Shown here one piece after another: positions 1-22,054 of a stretch of 22,054 nt of DNA. The DNA lies in the IMG/VR virus record IMGVR_UViG_3300020463_002038, positions 1 to 22,054 of that record. One strand, given 5' to 3'. The notes under the pieces are model-generated. The model made no database searches and had not been told where the DNA came from. It worked only from the letters and a program-made list of their open reading frames with translations. The position numbers and the translations under genes are program-made. The DNA is from a virus. Position 1 is the stretch's first letter. Each line of letters starts with the position of its first letter.

Positions 1-1092
1 TGGTACTGTTGGGTAGTTAATTGGCTGTACATAAATGTTATGATCATTTAGCAATGTGTCACTGGCTTGTTTACAACGCACAGGATCTCCTATTACAACA
101 GGTACAATATGTGTTTCGTTTTCTATCATGTTCAAATTTTTATGTCTAAGTATTTTCTTTAGTCTCGTTGCACGATTTTGATGTTGTTTACGCAACTCAA
201 CTCCATGCTCACTACAAAGATATTTTATGCTACTTAATGCTCCAGCACATACAACTGGACTTAAACTAGTTGTAAAAATAAAACCACTTGCTACACTTCT
301 TATCGCATCAATAACAACTGCGTCACCTGCAATATAGCCTCCTTGGCATCCAAATGCTTTGCCTAGCGTACCGTTTACAATATCTACATTATCTTGTAGT
401 CCTAGCAGTTGTGTATATCCTGCTCCGGTTTCTCCATATAATCCAACAGCATGTACTTCGTCTATGTAGGTCATAGCACCATATTTTTCAGCTAAGTCAC
501 ATATCTCATCCATATAGCTTATATATCCGTCCATGCTGTATACACTTTCAAATACAATACAAGGTGTGCCGTCTATATTTTTGAGTATGCTTTCTAGTTG
601 GTCTATATCGTTGTGTGCAAATATATGCTTAGTAGAACCACTGTGTCTAATTCCAGCTATTAAACTAGCGTGATTTTTACTATCGCTTATAAATTCAATA
701 TCAGGTATAATATTGCTAAGTGCTATTAGTGTCCATTCGTTTGCTACATATGCACTAGTGAATAGCAACGCACTTTCTTTGTTGTGTAGTTTAGCAAGTT
801 CGTATTCTAGAGCAACATGATAATGACTAGTCCCTCCTATGTTTCTAGTACCGCCGCTACCTGCTCCGGTTTGATCCAGTGCAGTGTGCATTGCATCTAG
901 TACAACTTTGTGCTGACCCATACCCAAATAATCATTACTGCACCAGTTTACGATGTTTTTAATATTGTAAGGCCCGTAGTAAATTGCTTGTGGATACTCT
1001 CCACGCTCTCTGAGTATGTCGTTGAATACTCTATAATTGCCACTACTCTTTAAGTTGGCTATTACACTTTGAAATTTGTTTTTGTCTATCAT
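1..1092 (-). CDS. hemA: 5-aminolevulinate synthase (HemA), C-terminus cut off by window edge
   Basis: PLP enzyme of the alpha-oxoamine synthase family, condensing glycine and succinyl-CoA to 5-aminolevulinate, the first step of the C4 tetrapyrrole (haem) pathway. My minus-strand translation gives 364 residues before the edge. Family residues are in order: [13 protein letters not shown] (about 49-61), [13 protein letters not shown] (about 78-90), [10 protein letters not shown], the PLP-binding [10 protein letters not shown] (about 211-220), [12 protein letters not shown] with the Schiff-base lysine at about 245, SGFIFTTSL, and [10 protein letters not shown]...QPINYPTVP at the edge. These match ALAS rather than BioF or Kbl, and full-length ALAS is about 400 residues, so roughly 40 are missing. 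The ATG at 1092 is the only sensible start and lies inside the end of the upstream small gene (50-nt overlap). It is probably cotranscribed with that gene from the late box at 1234-1241. Certain as a family member; its role in a phage is inferred. Confidence 0.95.
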
Positions 1093-1228
1093 TGTACTCT
1101 TTAAACATTTCTTTATCAATATGAGTCCATGAACCAGACCATGTACTTATAGTAAAGTACCCCATTTCATTGAATTCACGCTGAACAGCATTGTAGTCTT
1201 TTATCCATTCTTGAATGTACTTTAACAT
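1043..1228 (-). CDS. Small late protein of unknown function (61 aa)
   Basis: I do not recognise this protein. The open frame extends further upstream, but that part is antisense to hldD and crosses its promoter; the credible start is the ATG at 1228. It sits exactly 5 nt downstream of a TATAAATA late-promoter box (1234-1241). From there the protein is [15 protein letters not shown]... with an aromatic, mixed-charge composition ([16 protein letters not shown]), as in small soluble phage proteins. It has no signal peptide or membrane segment. No Shine-Dalgarno sequence is visible, the same as for other genes here with a box 5 nt away. Its last 50 nt overlap the start of hemA in another frame, so it leads a two-gene late transcript. 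Confidence 0.62.
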
Positions 1229-1298: not shown

Positions 1299-2171
1299 AT
1301 GCATATCGTCACAGGTGCGGCTGGTTTTATCGGTAGCAATATGGTAGCACATTTAAACAAGAATAACATTAGAAACATTGTTTGTGTGGATACTCTAAGT
1401 AGTAATAAAGTAGCTAACTTAGCAGGATTAGAGTTTATGGACTTTATTAGTCCAAACGAACTGCTAAACATGAATCTTAAAGATTGTACACTGTGGCACT
1501 TTGGCGCTAACAGTAAAACTAGTAGCAGTGATTGGGATAGTATATATCAATCTAATGTTGTATATACAAGAGAGTTAGCTGAAAAGTGCAATGATATAGT
1601 TTTTGCTAGTAGTGCTAGTGTATACGGTGATAGCTCCAACAATAGAGAATCTTCGAAAAATGAAGCACCTAAAAACATGTATGCCGCAACTAAAATGATA
1701 TGTGATAATATGCTTATAAATTATATAGAAATGTCTAAGATACAAAGTTGGCGTTTCTTTAATGTATATGGTAATAGAGAATCACATAAAATTTCTGCAC
1801 AACAAGCTAGCCCTTATACAAACTTTAAACACCAAGCACAAGTCAATGGGTTTATTGAATTGTTTGATAATAGTCATAATGTGCTTAGAGATTTTATTTG
1901 TGTTGACGATGTGGTAAAAATTATGTATGACACACATGCACAAGATGTTAGCTTTATAAGTAACTTAGGAACAGGTAGTACATATAGCTTTCAACAATGG
2001 GGAGAGCTAATAGCAGACAAGTATAATGCATCGATAAAATATATTGAAGTGCCAAACGAACTTCGTAACATATATCAAATGTACACCTGTAGTGATAATA
2101 CTAGTTTGCTAGATAGAATCGGCAACTATAAGTTTATTACACCCGAACAATTTGTAGAAGAAAATTTGTGA
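1299..2171 (+). CDS. hldD: ADP-glyceromanno-heptose 6-epimerase-like (HldD/RfaD) NAD(P)-dependent sugar epimerase
   Basis: Extended short-chain dehydrogenase/epimerase of 290 residues. The Rossmann loop TGAAGFIGSN is at 5-14, an acidic residue ending beta-2 is at D31, the active-site region is FASSASVYG at 102-110, and Y128-AAT-K132 is the Tyr-x3-Lys pair. FNVYGNRESHK at 154-164 and RDFICVDDV later are characteristic of HldD, as is NLGTGSTYSFQQ near the C-terminus. HldD converts ADP-D-glycero-beta-D-manno-heptose to the L-glycero epimer, the donor for inner-core LPS heptose. The ATG at 1299 has AGGAG 5 nt upstream and follows a perfect sigma70 promoter. Its end overlaps hldE by 4 nt (GTGA). 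Pairing with hldE makes the HldD assignment more likely than a generic UDP-sugar epimerase. Confidence 0.9.
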   Translation: MHIVTGAAGFIGSNMVAHLNKNNIRNIVCVDTLSSNKVANLAGLEFMDFISPNELLNMNLKDCTLWHFGANSKTSSSDWDSIYQSNVVYTRELAEKCNDIVFASSASVYGDSSNNRESSKNEAPKNMYAATKMICDNMLINYIEMSKIQSWRFFNVYGNRESHKISAQQASPYTNFKHQAQVNGFIELFDNSHNVLRDFICVDDVVKIMYDTHAQDVSFISNLGTGSTYSFQQWGELIADKYNASIKYIEVPNELRNIYQMYTCSDNTSLLDRIGNYKFITPEQFVEENL

Positions 2172-3328
2172 TTGTAGTAATAGGTGATATAATTATAGAC
2201 GAATATGTTTATGGAACTAGCACTAGGCTAAGTCCTGAAGCACCAGTGCCTGTCGTAAAACACCAAAAGACAGAACGTAAACTGGGTGGTGCAGGTAATG
2301 TGTATAATAACATAAAAAGCCTAATAGATGATGTTACACTTATTGGTTATAGAAATGATACTACAGATTGGCCCGTAGAACTATTTTGTACACATATGCC
2401 ACTAAAGCAAAGAATATATGCCGACAAACATTATATTACTAGAATTGATAGAGAACAAACAATCGATAATAGTACATTATTTGATTATGTAAAAGAACGT
2501 GTGCATAATTGTACAGTAGTAATAAGTGACTATAACAAAGGTACTATACAAGATCCGCAACGTTTAATAAAGATACTCAAAGACAATGGTTGTTATATAA
2601 TTGTTGATCCAAAACAACATTTAGATTTATATGCAGGTGCTGATGTAATCAAACCCAATAAAAAGGAATATGAAGAATACAATAATGGTGTTGATACTAA
2701 TATGGTCGTAACACTAGGTGCAGATGGTTACATGATAAATGATGTACATTATCCAACACAACAACAAGATGTATATGATGTTACAGGTGCAGGAGATACA
2801 TTTTTAGCTGTTATGGCATATTTTTTAGACTTTGGTGAAAATTTAGAATATGCTTGTGAAATGGCAAATAAAGGTGCAGGTGCTAGTGTGCAACACAATG
2901 GAGTTTATGTTATTCATTGGAAGGACTTAGATCCTCGCCCTACAGTTGTATTCACAAATGGATGTTTTGACTTATTGCATAGAGGGCATATAGAAATGCT
3001 TCGTGCCAGTAAAGCACTTGGAGAGCATCTTGTAGTTGGATTAAATACTGATGCTAGTGTAAAAAGATTAAAAGGTGATACTAGACCAATTAATACTGAA
3101 ACTGATAGAAAAGTTCTTCTCGAAAGTTTAGATTTTGTTGATGAGGTTATATTGTTTGACGAAGAAACACCACAACAGTTAATAGAAAGAATACGACCTG
3201 ATATAATTACAAAAGGTGGAGACTACACTGTTGATACTGTGGTCGGTAATGAGCTAGCAGAAGTTGTAATTATACCTACAGTAGAAAATCAAAGTACCAC
3301 AAATACAATCAAAAGGATAGTATTATGA
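2168..3328 (+). CDS. hldE: Bifunctional heptose kinase/adenylyltransferase (HldE/RfaE)
   Basis: Two fused enzymes in 386 residues. Residues 1 to about 250 are a PfkB/ribokinase-type kinase: GGAGNVYNN at 40-48 and VTGAGDTF at 205-212 with the catalytic Asp at about 210. It phosphorylates heptose 7-phosphate at O1. Residues about 258-386 are a cytidylyltransferase-fold domain: TNGCFDLLHRGH with HxGH at 271-274, and KGGDY and STTNTIKR near the end. It transfers AMP from ATP to make ADP-heptose. The E. coli enzyme is about 477 residues; here the kinase half is much shorter, but both active sites look intact. The GTG start at 2168 overlaps the hldD stop, and the end overlaps the cupin gene by ATGA, so translation is coupled. 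GmhA and GmhB are not in this window. Confidence 0.93.
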   Translation: MIVVIGDIIIDEYVYGTSTRLSPEAPVPVVKHQKTERKLGGAGNVYNNIKSLIDDVTLIGYRNDTTDWPVELFCTHMPLKQRIYADKHYITRIDREQTIDNSTLFDYVKERVHNCTVVISDYNKGTIQDPQRLIKILKDNGCYIIVDPKQHLDLYAGADVIKPNKKEYEEYNNGVDTNMVVTLGADGYMINDVHYPTQQQDVYDVTGAGDTFLAVMAYFLDFGENLEYACEMANKGAGASVQHNGVYVIHWKDLDPRPTVVFTNGCFDLLHRGHIEMLRASKALGEHLVVGLNTDASVKRLKGDTRPINTETDRKVLLESLDFVDEVILFDEETPQQLIERIRPDIITKGGDYTVDTVVGNELAEVVIIPTVENQSTTNTIKRIVL

Positions 3329-9834: not shown

Positions 9835-10530
9835 ATGAAGATATTTGAGGTAATAGCAGAAGCACGGGTTGAACCTGACAAAGAGTTTATGAGTCAAGCA
9901 GAGGAGATATTAGATGATAGTATCTCTGAGTACCAGGATTACTTAGATGATAATGGTGACGTTGACGATATAAACGAACTTGAGGAAATACTCAACTCTA
10001 ATAATCATGATGATTTACCTATTGAGTTTTTTGCTACTGATCAGGACCGCAAAGATCCTAATGAATGGATTAGTGCAGAAGCTGGTGTAGAAAATGGTGA
10101 ACGATTTATGCAAGTGTATTTGTTCACAAAGAATTTACAAGGCAAATACGGACCAAAAACTTTTAAACAACTTGTGATGCGTATGTTAGCACATGAAACT
10201 ATACACTGGAACCAGTACAGTAAGATAGGACTAGATAAAGTTGGCAAAATTAAAAGTGGTCACCAAAAGGGTACTGAGATAGCTAGAAAAACTGGCAATG
10301 AACAAGATTGGATGCGTGAATATCTTAGAGACCCACACGAACTTATGGCATACGCCAGTGACTTAGCTAGTGAAATAAAAGATACAGATAATCCTGAGCA
10401 AGTGCTACGCAATCCAGAACAATACAAAAATGACTTGCCTAGCTATGCTAGATATAGAACTGTATTTGAGCCTAATAGCAAAGAGCTAAAGCAACTGCTC
10501 AAGTACACTGCGGATTATTATAACGGATAA
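9835..10530 (+). CDS. Putative zinc metallopeptidase (HExxH) with a capsid-targeting-like N-terminus
   Basis: 231 residues. H120-E-T-I-H124 within RMLAHETIHWNQYSK is an HExxH zinc site. DPHELMAYASDLA at about 166-178 offers a downstream Glu as a possible third ligand, as in gluzincin-like peptidases. The N-terminus MKIFEVIAEARVE ends a 9-residue peptide in I-A-E and closely resembles the capsid-targeting sequence of T4 internal proteins (for example IPIII), which gp21 cleaves after [L/I]-x-E. The stretch from 20 to 60 is acidic and probably helical. The ATG lies 5 nt from a late box and the stop TAA lies in the next box; gp13 follows. I infer a head-packaged or structural peptidase. Activity is not shown, and a peptidase fold without activity is possible. 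Confidence 0.75.
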   Translation: MKIFEVIAEARVEPDKEFMSQAEEILDDSISEYQDYLDDNGDVDDINELEEILNSNNHDDLPIEFFATDQDRKDPNEWISAEAGVENGERFMQVYLFTKNLQGKYGPKTFKQLVMRMLAHETIHWNQYSKIGLDKVGKIKSGHQKGTEIARKTGNEQDWMREYLRDPHELMAYASDLASEIKDTDNPEQVLRNPEQYKNDLPSYARYRTVFEPNSKELKQLLKYTADYYNG

Positions 10531-16058: not shown

Positions 16059-16511
16059 ATGGCAAATAATTTTCAACAGGGTATATACGAAGTAAAAAAT
16101 CGTAGCAAGTATGTGGGTAAACATCGTCCTAAGTATAGAAGTGGCTGGGAATTAAAGTTTATGCGTATACTAGATGATCATCCTAACATCCTAGCCTGGG
16201 CTAGCGAAAGTCATAGAATACCTTATCGTAATCCAGCAACAGGTAAAAATACACATTATGTGCCAGACTTTTTTATAGTATACGAAGATAAAAATAAACA
16301 ACGAAAAGCAGAGATGATTGAAATAAAACCAGCAGGACAAACACTAGCACATGCAAAAAGTCCAATGCAAAAAGCAGCGGCTATAGTAAATGAAGCAAAA
16401 TGGCAAGCTGCAAAAGTATTCTGTAAACATCAAGGCGTTGGATTTCGTGTATTAACAGAACATGAGTTGTTTAATAATCCTAAACAGCCTAAGAGAAGGA
16501 AAAGAAGATGA
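16059..16511 (+). CDS. gp4: Head completion protein (T4 gp4/gp50-like), nuclease fold
   Basis: 150 residues, the same length as T4 gp4. YRSGWELKFMRILDDHP at about 26-42, IPYRNPATGKNTHYVPDFFI at about 54-73, and EMIEIKP at 85-91 form a PD-(D/E)XK-type site: E31, D70 and E88-x-K90. The C-terminus is very basic (KQPKRRKRR). In T4 gp4 is needed to make filled heads competent to join tails and acts at the packaged DNA end. Here it precedes gp16 with a 4-nt ATGA overlap. A late box lies 8 nt before the ATG. Confidence 0.9.
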   Translation: MANNFQQGIYEVKNRSKYVGKHRPKYRSGWELKFMRILDDHPNILAWASESHRIPYRNPATGKNTHYVPDFFIVYEDKNKQRKAEMIEIKPAGQTLAHAKSPMQKAAAIVNEAKWQAAKVFCKHQGVGFRVLTEHELFNNPKQPKRRKRR

Positions 16512-16999
16512 GTAGCAAGATTGAAGATGTATTTGATTTGCCTCCTATGAATGGAGAACCGATAGAAGAACCTATTACCCAAGGGTTAGATTTACCACAA
16601 CTACAAGAACAATTAGATCAAGCAGATAAAATTGATGCCGCACTACCAATGGTTAGAAATATGGAAACATTAGATAGTGATATGGACAAGTATGCTGATA
16701 AAGCTATGCATGCCTTTCAGGATCTTATGGATCTTGGACAAAATGTTGAAGATAGGCATGCAGCGGCTGTGTTTGATACAGCAAGTAAAATGATGACTAA
16801 TGCTATTACAGCTAAGACAGCTAAAATGGATAAAAAATTAAAGATGATACAACTACAGCTTCAAAAAGCTAAGTTGGATCAGCAGATAGCTAAAGATAGC
16901 GGCAAAGATGATGCTATTCAAGGCGAAGCAGAAGAGTTCGAAGATCGCAATAGTTTAATCAATGCTGTCATCGAAAAAATGGGTAAGCCTGATAAATAA
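16508..16999 (+). CDS. gp16: Terminase small subunit (T4 gp16-like)
   Basis: 163 residues, about the same as T4 gp16 (164). The N-terminal acidic part (IEDVFDLPPMNGEPIEE) and DKYADKAMHAFQDLMDLGQ, then DRHAAAVFDTASKMMTNAI and a long charged coiled-coil-like helix around 110-140 (KMDKKLKMIQLQLQKAKLDQ) fit the central gp16 region that builds the oligomer ring. It recognises concatemeric DNA and stimulates gp17. Its stop is part of the next late box. In T4 gp17 follows directly; here it lies 4.7 kb away behind five other genes. Confidence 0.85.
   Translation: MSSKIEDVFDLPPMNGEPIEEPITQGLDLPQLQEQLDQADKIDAALPMVRNMETLDSDMDKYADKAMHAFQDLMDLGQNVEDRHAAAVFDTASKMMTNAITAKTAKMDKKLKMIQLQLQKAKLDQQIAKDSGKDDAIQGEAEEFEDRNSLINAVIEKMGKPDK
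16991..16998 (+). promoter_or_regulatory. Late promoter box, GATAAATA, overlapping the gp16 stop
   Basis: GATAAATAACT; the TAA at 16997-16999 is the gp16 stop. The next ATG (17020) is 21 nt beyond with a GAAGGA ribosome site, so it would have a short leader. Confidence 0.7.
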
Positions 17000-17019: not shown

Positions 17020-17517
17020 ATGAAAAGTTTGACACAATATCTAGCTGAATCTGAAAAATCCTATGAGTTCAGACTTCGTAGTCTTAACGAGATTTCAGAT
17101 GAACATATGGACCGTATTGAATCACATATGGCCAAATACAATATGGAGAGCATGAGCTCACCAAAGAAAACTATTATGCACACACCTAGGGGCTTTGAAG
17201 ATAAAGGCGCACAGGAAGTATACATGTACGACATTAAAACAAAACTTCCAGCAACACCAAATAGCCTGCAAGAAGAAATTGCAGGAATTTGCGGAGTAAG
17301 CCTAGGCAGTATGATTGTTAATAATATGCTAGAAGCTAAAGAGCTTTGGGACGTTGAAGAAGAAACAAAAGACGAAGAACCCAAAAGTGTATTAGCTGAC
17401 GCAGATTATAGCGATTCCGAAAAAGTAGATCACAGTGAGCATTACGGTAACGAGTTTGTTGATAAATTTGTTAAAGCTCAACCAACAAACCAACTCAACA
17501 AAGAATATAAGGTGTAA
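17020..17517 (+). CDS. Probable head-associated protein with capsid-targeting-like N-terminus (165 aa)
   Basis: No family recognised. The first ten residues, MKSLTQYLAE, end in L-A-E and match the pattern of T4 capsid-targeting peptides; the protein at 20456 starts almost the same way (MKTLKTYLKE). The next part (FRLRSLNEISDEHMDRIESH) is helical, followed by a mixed region with TIMHTPRGFEDKGAQEVYMY and a strongly acidic C-terminal third (DVEEETKDEEPKSVLADADY). First gene of the block between the terminase subunits, behind a late box and a GAAGGA site. Prohead core, internal protein or scaffold-interacting protein are all possible. The gene itself is certain. Confidence 0.8.
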   Translation: MKSLTQYLAESEKSYEFRLRSLNEISDEHMDRIESHMAKYNMESMSSPKKTIMHTPRGFEDKGAQEVYMYDIKTKLPATPNSLQEEIAGICGVSLGSMIVNNMLEAKELWDVEEETKDEEPKSVLADADYSDSEKVDHSEHYGNEFVDKFVKAQPTNQLNKEYKV

Positions 17518-17521
17518 AACA

Positions 17522-19741
17522 ATGGATTTAAATGACTTATACAAATTGGCAGGAATTCAAAGAAGTGATACACCTGCGGTTGAACCACAAGAAGTGGAAC
17601 AGCAAGTAATTGAAGAGCCAACAGTTGATGGCAGAGAAGATATGAAAGCAATGATTGCCTTGGTTAGTCCTGAGCAATTAAATAAACTAGTAGGAAATGC
17701 TCCAGTGGAAGAAGATATGCCCGGAGAAAATGTTACCACTAAAGCAAACCCACAAGAATTCAAAGGCACACTAGGTAGTCCAGCAGATTTAAGTCTGCGT
17801 AGATACTTGGGAGCAAACGGAATGCCAGTTTCAATGGACGAAAGTTCCGTTTACAAAGATTTGACAACAGAAGAACTTAGCGAAGCGTATTTTAATTATA
17901 AACTGGATGAAGCGCCTAGGAAGGTAATAGGGTTGAAAGATCCAAACTTCCATACTGGTCCAAAAGATCTAATGCCAATGCCAATGCCGGATCCAATGCC
18001 GAATCCAATGCCAAGGCCACCAATGCCGGATCCAATGCCGGATCCAAGAGATCCAGATTATCCAGATCCAATGCCAATGCCGGATCCAGGTCCACCAAAT
18101 GACCCAACTCCGTTTCCAAGGCCACCGATGCCGGATCCAGGTCCACCAAATGACCCAACTCCGTTTCCAAGGCCACCAGAGGACCCAACTCCGTTTCCAG
18201 GTCCAAAGCCAAAAGATCCACCAGGTGAACCAATTCCAGAGCCAAGACCAGAGCCAGGACCTCCAATTCCAATACCAGGTGGTGGACCAGAAGAACCACC
18301 AAAACCAAAGATCGGAGATCCGGACGAAGGCTGGTACATTGAAGAACCAGGAAAAGCAGAAGAACCTAAGGATCCAATCGACACAAAGATTGATCCAAAA
18401 GATTTAGATGGCGATTCACCAGCAGATCCAAAAGATCCTAATTGGGATTTGAAGTTGGATGCGTTGGGAAGAAATATACAGACTTCAAAAGAGAGAGAAG
18501 AGATGTTTCAAAAATATGGACTTACTCCTCCTAGAGATGTACTTAAAGCACAAATGAAGCGTGAACAAGACAGGCGTGATCGTACAAATAAAGTCGGTTT
18601 TGATAAACTCTACAACGATAGAGACGAGGATACTTTAAATAGTACTTACGTCTCGCAACGCGATGAAAATGGCAATATTATCGATCCAAACCCAAAGGAA
18701 TCAACTATGAATGAAGAACCAAATGAAGGTAATGAATTTACTGGCGCATTAGCAAACGCTAAAAAAGCTGGTAAAAAAGAGTTTAAAGTAGACGGTAAAA
18801 CATATCAAGTAGAAGCAGTAGAACAGCTTCATGCAGATATGAATAGAATGCGTAAACTATCAGGATTAACTGAATCAACCATAATGGAAAGACCCGGACT
18901 AGAAAACAAAAGAGGGTATGACCCATTTGGATCGCAAGAACCAGAAACAAGGTTAAAAAACCAAAGAGGATTTGACCCATTTGGATCGCAAGAACCAGAA
19001 ACAAGATTAAAGAATCAAAGAGGCTTTGATCCATTTGGAGCTCAAGAACCTCCACAAAGTTTACAAGGTAAACGAGGATTTGATCCATTTGGCGGCGCAC
19101 CGGGTGACGAAGGCGACGAACCAGAAGATCCAATGGGCGGCATGGGAGAACCTAGTGGCGAACCAGCTCCAAGAGTACCAGATGCAATAGGTCCAACACC
19201 TACACCACCTAAATCAGATCCAATATTTGATCCATTTGGCGGTGCACCAGGAGATGAAGGAGATGATCCAGAAGATCCAATGGGCGGTATGGGAGAACCT
19301 GGCGGACCAGCAGATCCACCCGCAGGAACAAGACCACCAGATGCAATAGGTCCAACACCTACACCTCCTGCTTCAGGAACAAGACCACCAGATGCAATAG
19401 GTCCAACACCTACTGATCCAGCTACTCCGAGTGATGGGAAAGAAAAACCCAAAGCACCTGAGATTACAGCACAAATGAGAAAAGATGCTGAAGAGTATGC
19501 TGATAGAGATGGATTGCCATTAGATCAACTAGGTACACTAGTACCAGGTACAGTTGGTGGAATTCCAACAACACTAGAAGTTGATCCAAACTCTGGTACT
19601 GTTATCGATACGAAAACAGGCGATGTTATTGGCGGTGATGATGCAGATGCAGCTAGAGAAGCCGCTAAAGGAAGAACTCCTGGATTAGGTAACAAAAGTG
19701 AAAGCCTAGAAAGACTTCGAACCCTGTCAGGTATTAAGTAA
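17522..19741 (+). CDS. Large Pro-rich, repeat-bearing protein, probably virion-associated (739 aa)
   Basis: Start is ATG 17522 (MDLNDLYKLAGIQ), 4 nt after the stop of the previous gene, with an AAGGTG site; an in-frame ATG at 17435 would overlap that gene by 80 nt. Order: an N-terminal domain (1 to about 140), a Pro/Asp/Met-rich stretch (about 150-263) with PMPDPM- and DPGPPNDPTPFPRPP-type units, a linker, EFTGALANAKKAGKKEF plus VDGKTYQVE (a small beta motif), four 18-residue units of the type GFDPFGSQEPETRLKNQR, two longer Gly/Glu units, a Pro/Gly region and a folded end. MRKLSGL at 18848-18868 and LRTLSGIK at the C-terminus echo the N-terminal LAGI. No catalytic motif was seen. It may be an extended virion linker or core protein. 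Confidence 0.8.
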   Translation: MDLNDLYKLAGIQRSDTPAVEPQEVEQQVIEEPTVDGREDMKAMIALVSPEQLNKLVGNAPVEEDMPGENVTTKANPQEFKGTLGSPADLSLRRYLGANGMPVSMDESSVYKDLTTEELSEAYFNYKLDEAPRKVIGLKDPNFHTGPKDLMPMPMPDPMPNPMPRPPMPDPMPDPRDPDYPDPMPMPDPGPPNDPTPFPRPPMPDPGPPNDPTPFPRPPEDPTPFPGPKPKDPPGEPIPEPRPEPGPPIPIPGGGPEEPPKPKIGDPDEGWYIEEPGKAEEPKDPIDTKIDPKDLDGDSPADPKDPNWDLKLDALGRNIQTSKEREEMFQKYGLTPPRDVLKAQMKREQDRRDRTNKVGFDKLYNDRDEDTLNSTYVSQRDENGNIIDPNPKESTMNEEPNEGNEFTGALANAKKAGKKEFKVDGKTYQVEAVEQLHADMNRMRKLSGLTESTIMERPGLENKRGYDPFGSQEPETRLKNQRGFDPFGSQEPETRLKNQRGFDPFGAQEPPQSLQGKRGFDPFGGAPGDEGDEPEDPMGGMGEPSGEPAPRVPDAIGPTPTPPKSDPIFDPFGGAPGDEGDDPEDPMGGMGEPGGPADPPAGTRPPDAIGPTPTPPASGTRPPDAIGPTPTDPATPSDGKEKPKAPEITAQMRKDAEEYADRDGLPLDQLGTLVPGTVGGIPTTLEVDPNSGTVIDTKTGDVIGGDDADAAREAAKGRTPGLGNKSESLERLRTLSGIK
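17972..18309 (+). repeat. Pro-rich coding repeat region
   Basis: Short PM/DP units followed by a 51-bp tandem pair (from about 18081 and 18132; unit DPGPPNDPTPFPRPP...) and a partial third. The reading frame stays open, so length change is in units of codons. Confidence 0.85.
18909..19095 (+). repeat. 54-bp coding tandem repeat (DPFG units)
   Basis: Four units of 54 bp (18 aa) with the DPF codons starting near 18920, 18974, 19028 and 19082. Units 1 and 2 are near identical, unit 4 leads into a 73-bp element (19081-19153) that recurs at 19228-19300. Confidence 0.88.
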
Positions 19742-19751
19742 GGAAAAGATA

Positions 19752-20456
19752 ATGCCAACATCACAGGAAATGAGAGTAGACAAAACGTTTAATGGTGCAA
19801 TGGATCAAATCAATCGATTGCAAAAAGTTTTCCGTGATGAAGGCGGCCTTGCTAAAGCAGTAGTTGATGTTGGCGGTAGTCAAGACTTTGGCGCTATACA
19901 AGAAGCATTTGACAACTTGTATGGTGCATTGGAAGATGCACACTATGATGCAATGGCTGGTATCGAAGTAGAAGCAGTAAAACAAAAGCTAGGATACGGT
20001 TTACACAAATACGTTAAAGAAGATCCTAGTAAGCCAAACTTTCCAATGGAAATAGAACTAGCTGGTGACAGCATTTGGGATAGAGATGAACCTAATCCAA
20101 AAACTGTTACAGTTACAGACTATAATATGGATAAAGATGAAGAAGGATATGTAAGTGTTACAGTTCAACACGACGGTCCTTGGACTGTATATACAGATAC
20201 AGGTTTTGAAAAAGCTATTAGTGAGATGATTGGTATGGAAGTTTCATTTAGTGAACAAGGTATGCAACAAGATGGCATAGCTCACTTAGAAGGCGGAGAT
20301 GCTATGGAATCAGTAACTGAGAGTGCATGTGGTTGTGGATCTAGTTGTTCATGTGACGGTGCTTGTACATCAAGTTGTAACTGTGGACCAAGTTGTGATG
20401 ACACTTCACAAGCTGATATAGAACTAGCAATGTTAAAAAGAAATGCAGGATTATAA
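19752..20456 (+). CDS. Unknown protein with an 8-Cys tail and LKRNAGL C-terminus (234 aa)
   Basis: No family recognised for the body. Residues 1-110 look helical (MDQINRLQKVFRDEG..., EAFDNLYGALEDAHYD), 115-165 beta-like (TVTVTDYNMDKDEEGYVSVT). From about 193 to 215 there are eight cysteines in 23 residues, spaced CxC-x3-CxC-x3-C-x3-CxC-x3-C with Gly and Ser between, like a metallothionein or a small metal cluster. The last eleven residues, ELAMLKRNAGL, are nearly the same as the end of the next protein. The ATG has an AAGGA site and the stop overlaps the next start (TAATG), so translation is coupled. The Cys tail could bind zinc or copper, or be a disulphide cross-link; none is shown. Confidence 0.78.
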   Translation: MPTSQEMRVDKTFNGAMDQINRLQKVFRDEGGLAKAVVDVGGSQDFGAIQEAFDNLYGALEDAHYDAMAGIEVEAVKQKLGYGLHKYVKEDPSKPNFPMEIELAGDSIWDRDEPNPKTVTVTDYNMDKDEEGYVSVTVQHDGPWTVYTDTGFEKAISEMIGMEVSFSEQGMQQDGIAHLEGGDAMESVTESACGCGSSCSCDGACTSSCNCGPSCDDTSQADIELAMLKRNAGL

Positions 20457-21196
20457 TGAAAACACTTAAAACATATCTCAAAGAAGATCAAATAGATGAT
20501 AAAAAGATGGACCAGTTAGAGGAAATAGAAAAGTCTGCATATAGACTTATGGCTCAAATTGGAGAGTTAGAGGATCTAGACAGAGCTGAAGGCGCAAGTG
20601 GTGCTTATGATCTTACTGATCAAATAGTTACAATGGACAAGCACATGCAAGGCATGATTGAAGTTATACGGAGAGCATTTAAAATTGTTCCAACAAACGA
20701 ACCTGTAACAGGTGAATCAGTCGATGAAAATATCTCTAATATACCAATTAATGAGTGGTGGAGCGAATGGCAATCAGCTACAGCAAATTTCCCAATGATA
20801 GGAAAGTATATGAGAGGGTTTGGATATGATCCAAGTAGCAAAGAAGGTGTTAAAGCCTTTGTTAAACAAAACCCATCATGGATACAGAAGATGGGCCAAA
20901 TTTACGGAAAATATGCAAATGTTGGTTCTATACTTGGAAGAGCATTTGCTCCGCCAGGAATGAATGTTGATAAAGCAGTCGAGATAAGAGATAAAGTAAA
21001 AAATAAATACCCAACAGCATTTAAGCAGTTTGCACAAGGTGATGCAGGAGGTGCTCTTAAGACTATAGGAGTTACAGATTCAGTTGCAAGACAACATATA
21101 CAAAACATAATGTTCGAAGCCGCTATCGAAGCCGCCAAAGAGATTGTAACAGAACATCAAGAATTACAACTTCTTAAACGAAACGCAGGTCTCTAA
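20456..21196 (+). CDS. Unknown protein with capsid-targeting-like N-terminus and LKRNAGL tail (246 aa)
   Basis: MKTLKTYLKEDQIDDKK starts with a ten-residue peptide ending in L-K-E, like the protein at 17020. A helical stretch (EEIEKSAYRLMAQIGELEDL...) is followed by a more folded centre with EWWSEWQSATANFPMIGKYM, NPSWIQKMGQIYGKY and FAPPGMNVDKAVEIRDKVKN. The end, EIVTEHQELQLLKRNAGL, shares its last seven residues exactly with the previous protein, although most of those codons differ. No catalytic motif was seen. Start overlaps the previous stop; the next gene begins 1 nt after its stop. I infer a head-packaged protein; the mechanism is unknown. Confidence 0.78.
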   Translation: MKTLKTYLKEDQIDDKKMDQLEEIEKSAYRLMAQIGELEDLDRAEGASGAYDLTDQIVTMDKHMQGMIEVIRRAFKIVPTNEPVTGESVDENISNIPINEWWSEWQSATANFPMIGKYMRGFGYDPSSKEGVKAFVKQNPSWIQKMGQIYGKYANVGSILGRAFAPPGMNVDKAVEIRDKVKNKYPTAFKQFAQGDAGGALKTIGVTDSVARQHIQNIMFEAAIEAAKEIVTEHQELQLLKRNAGL

Positions 21197-21197
21197 T

Positions 21198-21698
21198 ATG
21201 AGAATCTTAGAATTATTTGAAGATCCAGGAGATCCAGAAGAAACTCCAAAACTTAGACCATCTGACTGGGCGCCTAAGAAAAAAGGTATGGATGACTTCG
21301 AACCTAACACACCTTTTGCATATGGAACAAAGCATAAGATGCAACAGAGAATGAAAGCAACTCAGAAAAAGGCTAAAGATGCTGGCTATGTAAAACCAGA
21401 CGGAACTGCTGATACTAGAGCATATTTCCAAGACAAACATGACCGAGAACGAGCAGAGGCTCAGGCAAAAGATCGTGCGTATAGAAAAAAATATCCTACA
21501 GGTAACGTAACAAGAAATGATACAGGCGACGATACTGGCAGTCTCGGCGTAACTGTAAGATCGTATGAAGATCCACCTAAACAAGTTCATCCAGATGATC
21601 GAAAAGATCAAAATAAATGGATGGGCGATGTAATGAATAAAAGGGCAAAAACTGCAAAAGCTCGTCACGAATTGAAAAGCACCCCAGACTTCACATAA
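21198..21698 (+). CDS. Basic hydrophilic protein with possible capsid-targeting N-terminus (166 aa)
   Basis: No family recognised. MRILELFEDPG begins with eight residues ending in L-F-E. The rest is very hydrophilic, rich in Lys, Arg, Asp and Pro, with APKKKGMDDFEPNT, a helical KHKMQQRMKATQKKAKDAG, HDRERAEAQAKDRAYRKKY and few hydrophobic residues, so it is probably disordered or DNA-bound. That is the composition expected of a small internal head protein. It begins 1 nt after the previous stop, and its own stop TAA is inside the late box of gp17. Confidence 0.75.
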   Translation: MRILELFEDPGDPEETPKLRPSDWAPKKKGMDDFEPNTPFAYGTKHKMQQRMKATQKKAKDAGYVKPDGTADTRAYFQDKHDRERAEAQAKDRAYRKKYPTGNVTRNDTGDDTGSLGVTVRSYEDPPKQVHPDDRKDQNKWMGDVMNKRAKTAKARHELKSTPDFT

Positions 21699-21709: not shown

Positions 21710-22054
21710 ATGAGTGTAGATACAAACTTAATCAAAACCCCGTATAAACGTGAGAAATTCAATCAACAACAAATTGAAGAGATCGTTAAGTGTACACAAG
21801 ATCCTCAATATTTTATTGAGAACTTTGTATGGATACAGCATCCAGTCAAAGGCAGATTAAAGTTTGACTTGTTCGACTTTCAAAAAGAACTGCTTGACGC
21901 TTATCACAATCACCGCTACAGTATAGCACTTATTAGTAGACAAATGGGCAAGTCGACTGCGGCTGGCGCATATTTGTTATGGTATGCTATGTATGTACCT
22001 GACCAAACTATTCTTATTGCGGCACACAAATACAGCGGTGCCCAAGAGATTATG
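21710..22054 (+). CDS. gp17: Terminase large subunit, N-terminal part (T4 gp17-like)
   Basis: 115 residues before the edge. The opening (REKFNQQQIEEIVKCTQDPQ, then YFIENFVWIQHPVKGRLKFD) and FDFQKELLDAY precede the Walker A SRQMGKST at about 76-83 with Lys at about 81, and QTILIAAHKYSGAQEIM; T4 gp17 has SRQLGKT here. The ATPase half drives DNA into the prohead through the portal; the nuclease half and Walker B lie outside the window. It starts 8 nt after a late-box-like sequence with no evident ribosome site. In T4 it follows gp16 directly. Confidence 0.95.
   Translation, partial: MSVDTNLIKTPYKREKFNQQQIEEIVKCTQDPQYFIENFVWIQHPVKGRLKFDLFDFQKELLDAYHNHRYSIALISRQMGKSTAAGAYLLWYAMYVPDQTILIAAHKYSGAQEIM

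Follow-up and report, generated by a model that had tools for sequence, protein, structure and literature searches.

Which proteins do phages encode between the two subunits of the terminase, and how would these proteins find their way into the virion? We addressed these questions in IMG/VR virus record IMGVR_UViG_3300020463_002038, a 22,054-base virus fragment from a marine, giant-type phage, analyzed over its whole length and hereafter called the window, in which a gp16-like open reading frame (ORF) and the gene of the terminase large subunit are separated by a gap of 4.7 kb holding five same-strand ORFs (ORF-A to ORF-E). Our results indicate that this cassette probably encodes internal-head (prohead-core) proteins, which would be brought in by a T4-type N-terminal address, by a second address that mimics the scaffold protein, or by both. 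The T4 capsid-targeting sequence (CTS) constitutes the classic route to load phage heads, and has been used to package foreign proteins; if the scaffold peptide is indeed a second and independent address, it would supply a sequence rule by which internal head proteins could be recognized in jumbo phages, where most of the proteome is uncharacterized.

Gene order and content of the cassette

The terminase of the window most resembles the enzymes of the jumbo T4-like phages PA5oct, Phosso and 2.275.O. Toward the right end of the window, gp1 is followed by the tail sheath gene, two tube-like genes, gp4-like head closure and gp16, then by ORF-A to ORF-E and finally by the terminase large subunit. 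The cassette, its borders and its terminal tags, including the second tag LxxLxxLAG[IL] ("LAG"), are arranged as follows; the virion annotations from electrospray ionization tandem mass spectrometry (ESI-MS/MS) refer to PA5oct, and pI denotes the isoelectric point.

16508..16999, + strand: gp16-like small terminase, bounding the cassette on the left (phrog_16202, 1.6e-11), in a slot common to PA5oct, Phosso, 2.275.O and relatives
17020..17517, + strand: ORF-A, 165 aa, a core gene of the cassette (phrog_14802, "virion structural protein, head and packaging", 1.1e-9); PA5oct homolog gp282 annotated ESI-MS/MS
17020..17049, + strand: capsid-targeting-like tag at the N-terminus of ORF-A, MKSLTQYLAE, predicted cut after E10 (next residue S), with conservation in 22 homologs
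17522..19741, + strand: ORF-B, 739 aa from the ATG at 17522, Pro-rich and repeat-rich, of highly variable length, LAG-tagged; same-slot PA5oct gp281 annotated ESI-MS/MS
17522..17557, + strand: N-terminal LAG tag of ORF-B, MDLNDLYKLAGI, kept at the N-end of B-type genes
18839..18874, + strand: internal LAG tag of ORF-B, running into an L-x-E site in the sequence, MNRMRKLSGLTE
19706..19738, + strand: C-terminal LAG tag of ORF-B, LERLRTLSGIK
19752..20456, + strand: ORF-C, 234 aa, with a Cys-rich segment ahead of its tag
20418..20453, + strand: C-terminal LAG tag of ORF-C, IELAMLKRNAGL, ending LKRNAGL; the NAG form is also found near the end of the Munch scaffold
20456..21196, + strand: ORF-D, 246 aa, with tags at both ends
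20456..20485, + strand: capsid-targeting-like tag at the N-terminus of ORF-D, MKTLKTYLKE (LKE at residues 8-10, then D), kept in family members MTDKTFKDYLKE and MTDKTFKQYLTE
21164..21193, + strand: C-terminal LAG tag of ORF-D, LQLLKRNAGL
21198..21698, + strand: ORF-E, 166 aa, basic (pI 9.3)
21198..21221, + strand: short N-terminal tag of ORF-E, MRILELFE (LFE at residues 6-8, then D); relatives read MRIFELFE, MRISEILFE, MRLSELFE and MRMSELFE, to be compared with MKLVELFEA in the gp67-like core protein of 2.275.O
21710..22054, + strand: terminase large subunit, right border, cut off at the contig end (phrog_5989, 4.5e-30; PA5oct terminase 53% identical)

An initial annotation of this DNA had pointed out that gp16 and gp17 lie 4.7 kb apart with five genes between them, and the ORFs at 16508-16999 and from 21710 onward bear this out; the separation is nevertheless not special, as cyanophages hold 3.2-7 kb of genes between gp16 and gp17, a site which is an insertion hot spot in these phages (PMC3037559). 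In PA5oct, where the gene order is identical, two genes lie between gp16 and the terminase, namely gp282 (the ORF-A homolog) and gp281 (in the ORF-B slot). Relatives of the cassette were compared in a set of 106 IMG/VR loci, with ORFs in metagenomic loci called by a simple longest-ATG rule. ORF-A was present in essentially every related cassette examined, and apart from it the gene content is hypervariable across relatives. The patterns used with ORF-D as a query in viral contigs gave no match, and for this reason ORF-D is regarded as a rare accessory gene. The hydrophilic, acidic or basic character of the proteins, which had been read as a mark of internal head proteins, is correct as a description (pI 4.8 for ORF-A, 5.6 for ORF-D and 9.3 for ORF-E) but uninformative, since gp16, with a pI of 4.5, is comparable in acidity and hydrophilicity.

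A probable T4-type address at the N-terminus

In the T4 internal protein (IP) IPIII, the first 10 residues suffice for packaging; of these, residues 4 and 7 mainly determine targeting and residues 8 and 10 processing, and the T4 protease gp21 cleaves after L/I-x-E (PMC9026906). The N-terminus of T4 ipIII reads MKTYQEFIAEA, and ORF-A and ORF-D match it position by position. Three of the five genes start with a tag ending in L-x-E (ORF-A, ORF-D and ORF-E), as initially annotated; starts of the form M[KR]-x(3-7)-[LI]xE were found in 4/258 PA5oct ORFs without virion annotation and in ~2% of the non-cassette ORFs in the loci, and at the 2% rate the binomial estimate for three of five ORFs is ~8e-5.

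Further, the tag is conserved among relatives in a manner resembling the T4 requirements: among 22 ORF-A homologs K2, Y7 and E10 show no variation, L4 and L8 are found in 21/22, encoded by varied codons, and positions 5 and 9 are free to vary, while [LI]xE stands at residues 8-10 in 35/35 intact ORF-A variants. The ORF-E N-termini show a one-residue length difference with [LI]xE kept (MRIFELFE vs MRISEILFE), and other cassette proteins also start with the N-terminal tag (MKRFTEYLNEG, MKTFTEYLKEG, MKKFTEYLKEA, MSKTFKDYLQEA, MIEKRFRKYLSEG, MKMKNFKDYLVEN and MKRLTQYLAEQ). It is this conservation pattern, rather than the N-terminal motif alone, that makes the tag a solid observation at the sequence level; together with the virion annotations in PA5oct, it lends good support to the proposed head targeting by a T4-type N-terminal tag.

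A second tag shared with the scaffold protein

The initial count of three tagged genes was incomplete, as ORF-B and ORF-C also belong to the group through the LAG tag, which is found at the ends of ORF-B, ORF-C and ORF-D. The pattern LxxLxx[LN][AS]G[IL..] is present in 100/124 distinct non-A cassette proteins of the 106 loci and in 16/727 other ORFs, all 16 being cassette genes on contigs that stop short of the terminase; its rate in shuffled proteins is 0.18%. The tag is nearly confined to cassette, terminase-adjacent and scaffold genes: every LAG match in the window and in five contigs of 35-89 kb lies inside the cassette, and in the relatives G020, G021, G022 and G026 the tag is found on the scaffold and terminase-adjacent genes, plus a few others. 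In PA5oct, the strict motif occurs in 4/93 virion-detected proteins (including gp281 and gp249) vs 1/258 other ORFs, that one being the scaffold (p = 0.019).

The same peptide terminates the gp22-like scaffold protein, encoded between gp21 and the major capsid protein (MCP), which ends ELRRLAGIK in PA5oct, ELRRLAGIEK in Phosso and RLTKIAGIRK in 2.275.O; the aligned scaffold tails of these three phages are otherwise poorly conserved, with L361 and A365-G366-I367 invariant. In the IMG/VR loci, 79/79 MCP-adjacent scaffold genes end in the LAG peptide, and so do the scaffolds of Munch, 121Q, RaK2, GAP32 and Atu_ph07, with LSG or NAG variants in some (eight cultured jumbo phages in all); the peptide is absent from T4 gp22 and from gp22 of cyanophage S-H38. 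The cassette genes do not occupy the gp22-type position between gp21 and the MCP, as they sit between gp16 and terL, and the comparison of scaffold bodies with cassette bodies gave no significant similarity (best E 0.039). We lean toward the view that unrelated, fast-evolving cargo acquired copies of the scaffold tail at either end, interchangeable with the T4-type CTS, which would constitute a second general head-address signal of jumbo T4-like phages acting through co-assembly as scaffold mimics. No description of a scaffold-tail peptide as a shared address was found in the open-access literature searched, and the LAG peptide is apparently undescribed as a head address.

Tag exchange within the GAPDYNP protein family provides the most direct indication of a common function of the two tags. 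Members of this family start with the N-terminal tag in L080 and L082 (MSKTFKDYLQE, then AGAPDYNP), and with a LAG tag in L031/L065, L061, L054 and L057 (in L031/L065 MEIDVLKQLAGLITE, then AMGAPDYNP; also MDISRLIQLSGLNNE, then AMGAPDYNP), and E lies ahead of the junction in every N-tag or LAG-tag case. At the C-terminus, [LIVM]xE was found upstream of the LAG tag in 49/77 tails vs 38 expected, a difference that is only suggestive of removal of the tag by the protease.

Common termini could also have arisen by recent duplication or recombination in a hypervariable locus, with no targeting role. The B, C and D cassette proteins are module-sharing mosaics, and single linkage puts 120 of them in one group; a single-linkage count of "unrelated families" was dropped for merging these mosaics, and the claim on the N-terminal tag was consequently restricted to 15 architectures in six body groups, between which no similarity was detected at E <= 1e-4. 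This origin is nonetheless improbable, given that N-terminal tags stand on six groups without detectable body similarity, that the tags vary in codons and indel length with the hydrophobic and LxE pattern kept, and that LAG is universal on a scaffold whose body has no significant similarity to those of the cassette. It is also improbable that the C-terminal LAG tag constitutes a by-product of a ribosome-binding site, in which the Ala-Gly codons GCAGGA would provide AGGA upstream of the next tightly packed gene. The Gly codon does lie 5-10 nt ahead of the next start in 41/74 C-terminal tags, and Ala is encoded by GCA in 66/70; however, the GCA preference extends to N-terminal (26/28) and internal (22/25) tags, which are unable to serve a next gene, 33/74 C-terminal tags lie >= 19 nt from a start, the scaffold stop of 2.275.O is 76 nt from the MCP start, and the hydrophobic spacing upstream of AG is conserved too. 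As an observation in its own right, GCA encodes the Ala of the tag in ~90% of copies, wherever these are located, vs a background of 58%, a bias that a ribosome-binding role explains incompletely.

Maturation protease and virion annotation

The protease gp21 (PF03420, Peptidase_S77) was identified in 3/3 cultured relatives and in 5/5 long contigs also holding the terminase; four of these five contigs were read, and those four hold ORF-A homologs. In 80/80 relatives, [LI]-x-E lies just ahead of the mature start of the MCP (e.g., YLAE then SATAGAT), and the scaffolds contain 19.7 [LI]xE sites vs 7.1 in shuffles (2.8-fold enriched). Based on gp21 in relatives and on these MCP and scaffold sites, the T4 cleavage rule very probably holds in the group of the window. 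In the cassette bodies, internal [LI]xE sites are not in excess (ORF-B 7 vs 5.6 expected, ORF-C 2 vs 1.7). Furthermore, PA5oct gp282 and gp281 are annotated as "structural protein, ESI-MS/MS", this evidence consisting of GenBank notes for one relative, and the PA5oct scaffold is not annotated as virion-detected.

These data bear on whether the proteins could be head-assembly factors, i.e., packaging accessories or further parts of the core or scaffold, acting during assembly only and then removed. Address peptides are common to the cassette proteins, the scaffold and the gp67-like core protein, the genes lie between packaging genes, and the nearly constant presence of ORF-A is as expected for an assembly factor; yet gp282 and gp281 are virion-annotated and the PA5oct scaffold is not, the cassette bodies have no surplus of internal [LI]xE, unlike scaffolds, and the gene content apart from ORF-A is hypervariable, all of which leads us to consider such a role the less likely one. 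A tentative possibility, which adds to the internal-head explanation with no contradiction, is that the cassette proteins are effectors resembling T4 IPs or Alt, ejected with the DNA and countering host defence or reprogramming the host. T4 IPI* acts in this manner, and T-even phages have a diverse set of internal proteins that share a conserved targeting sequence (PMC3012670); a hypervariable cassette behind conserved tags is likewise what an arms race would be expected to produce. Against this, no effector domain was recognized in any cassette protein by profile and fold searches, and ORF-B is low-complexity. The cassette proteins had no PHROG or Pfam match to the T4 IP or Alt families, and Foldseek with the ORF-A model retrieved only uncharacterized phage proteins and non-specific alpha/beta folds.

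Proposed explanation

Of the possible roles (assembly factor, stored structural cargo or ejected effector), retained cargo is the one that the PA5oct virion annotation and the lack of internal [LI]xE enrichment speak for. In the proposed mechanism, ORF-A, ORF-D and ORF-E would carry an N-terminal CTS that docks on the prohead core through its hydrophobic residue 4 and aromatic residue 7, and a gp21-like protease of the phage would later cleave after [LI]-x-E. ORF-B, ORF-C and ORF-D, whose LAG peptide is the one that ends the gp22-like scaffold in related phages, would be assembled as scaffold mimics; since they carry the scaffold-tail peptide, they are expected to bind the partner of the scaffold tail, either shell protein or core. 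The bodies would then remain in the head with the DNA after maturation. We infer the docking partners and the copy number, as well as the scaffold tail and the cleavage in the phage of the window itself.

Several observations weigh against this explanation. The window (22 kb) holds no gp21, scaffold or MCP, and the nearest contigs examined, fragments of up to 89 kb, all lacked gp21; the protease sought on the basis of the initial annotation comes from the 3 cultured relatives and the five long contigs, and the link rests on relatives with terminases 48-59% identical to that of L007, which in turn is 97% identical to that of the window over the N-terminal 115 aa. The proposed gp21 cut after [L/I]-x-E, in agreement with the MCPs of relatives, is not universal: ORF-A homologs lacking [LI]xE at residues 8-10 occur in PA5oct (MKSFRDYYDA, in a virion-annotated protein), Phosso (MKNFYEYLSS) and G026 (MKTLFEYIET), and clipping is not conserved there; as residues 4 and 7 are kept in these three homologs, they are predicted to be packaged and unclipped at that site. 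The N-tag pattern in PA5oct is found in 5/93 virion-detected proteins vs 4/258 other ORFs, an enrichment that is not significant (p = 0.059), and because of this weak enrichment we did not take the N-terminal pattern by itself as proof. In addition, GAP32 and Munch have the scaffold tag and no such tagged cassette adjoining the terminase, and the fold models of ORF-A (predicted local distance difference test, pLDDT, 64; a small alpha/beta body) and ORF-C (pLDDT 59) are both of low confidence.

If the explanation holds, a scaffold peptide of 10 residues suggests a minimal packaging tag and points to the contact of the scaffold with shell or core, and it makes a testable claim on how phages load changing cargo behind fixed tags.

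Other features of the window and its relatives

The search for other M[KR]..[LI]xE starts, also suggested by the initial annotation, identified an ORF of the window outside the cassette.

9835..10530, + strand: ORF with the N-terminus MKIFEVIAE, then A, and an HExxH motif (HETIHWNQ, metalloprotease-like); relatives keep [LI]xE followed by AR (MRLHELIEAR, MKVYEIVEAR and MRLHELVEAR)

The N-termini of this ORF and its relatives differ by an indel with [LI]xE kept (MKIFEVIAEARVEP vs MRLHELIEARVEP), and the libraries tried gave no convincing family match; its product is possibly a packaged protease. CTS-like starts outside the cassette were also observed in L122-L134 (G006-G008), reading MKARQFLAEA, MKANEFLAEA, MRARELLTEA, MKIFDIITED and MKVSDIVEA, and further packaged proteins are likely encoded elsewhere in these genomes. 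In G022, at 156047-167990 (L307, L308) and far from the terminase, several LAG-tagged ORFs and a protein with the CTS-like start MRASEFLNEA make up a second island.

Within the cassette, the Cys-rich stretch of ORF-C (CGCGSSCSCDGACTSSCNCGPSC, window 20325-20400) lies directly ahead of the LAG tag and is possibly metal-binding, with similar stretches in cassette proteins of L009 and L098. A recurrent module ahead of the LAG tag (ORF-B 18700-18820 and relatives), reading NEFxGxLAxAKxAGKKEFxVDGKTYxVE or NAFNQAAAAAARAGKxxFEFGGKTxK, is reshuffled among cassette proteins. At the opposite end of the window, a truncated 5-aminolevulinate synthase gene (TIGR01821, 2.4e-157; window 1-1119, - strand), cut by the contig end, constitutes a haem-pathway gene adjoining heptose genes: an ADP-heptose epimerase-like ORF and a compact HldE-like kinase/adenylyltransferase fusion (window 1299-3328, + strand), both under the curated cut-offs of their families, which represent a possible lipopolysaccharide-heptose module in a phage.

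Comparison with known systems

T4 IPI, IPII, IPIII and Alt resemble the cassette proteins in the register of the tag (hydrophobic residue 4, aromatic residue 7, L/I at 8 and E at 10), shared by ORF-A and ORF-D and present in ORF-E as a two-residue-shorter form, as well as in their variable bodies behind a constant tag and in the gp21-type protease, here found in relatives. In contrast, the cassette bodies are not homologous to them by the searches made, and several of the proteins have an additional tag at the C-terminus; body homology is not strictly defining, as it is mainly the CTS that the T4 IPs have in common. Location also differs: T4 ipIII is found next to e and ipI near 57/1, and the cassette genes between gp16 and gp17. 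The jumbo T4-like gp22-type scaffold (PA5oct gp330, 121Q 602, RaK2 ORF093; phrog_10922) shares the C-terminal LxxLxxLAG[IL] with the cassette proteins; it is, however, a coiled-coil-like core protein rich in [LI]xE, whereas the cassette bodies show no significant similarity to it and are not enriched in such sites.

The phiKZ and SPN3US inner-body and ejection proteins are comparable in that a gp21-related protease cuts many head proteins, which are kept inside the head (PMC9026906), with the difference that the phiKZ cleavage motif is S/A-x-E, unlike the [LI]-x-E described here. In herpesviruses, the C-terminus of the scaffold protein VP22a binds the major capsid protein and is freed by the maturation protease (PMC12474303). 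This tail constitutes the nearest mechanistic parallel and a model for the possible role of LAG, with no sequence relation implied. To our knowledge, no cargo copying the herpesvirus scaffold tail is known.

The hypervariable region between gp16 and gp17 of cyanomyoviruses occupies the same slot with variable gene content, and S-H38 has a protein starting MKTYKQFLNES there; Sf-CH1b carries metabolic genes in it, and LAG was absent from the slot genes translated from two cyanophages. Taken together, insertions between gp16 and gp17 in cyanophages and CTS-bearing internal proteins in T4 were already known, and the apparently new element is a scaffold-tail peptide serving as a shared address.

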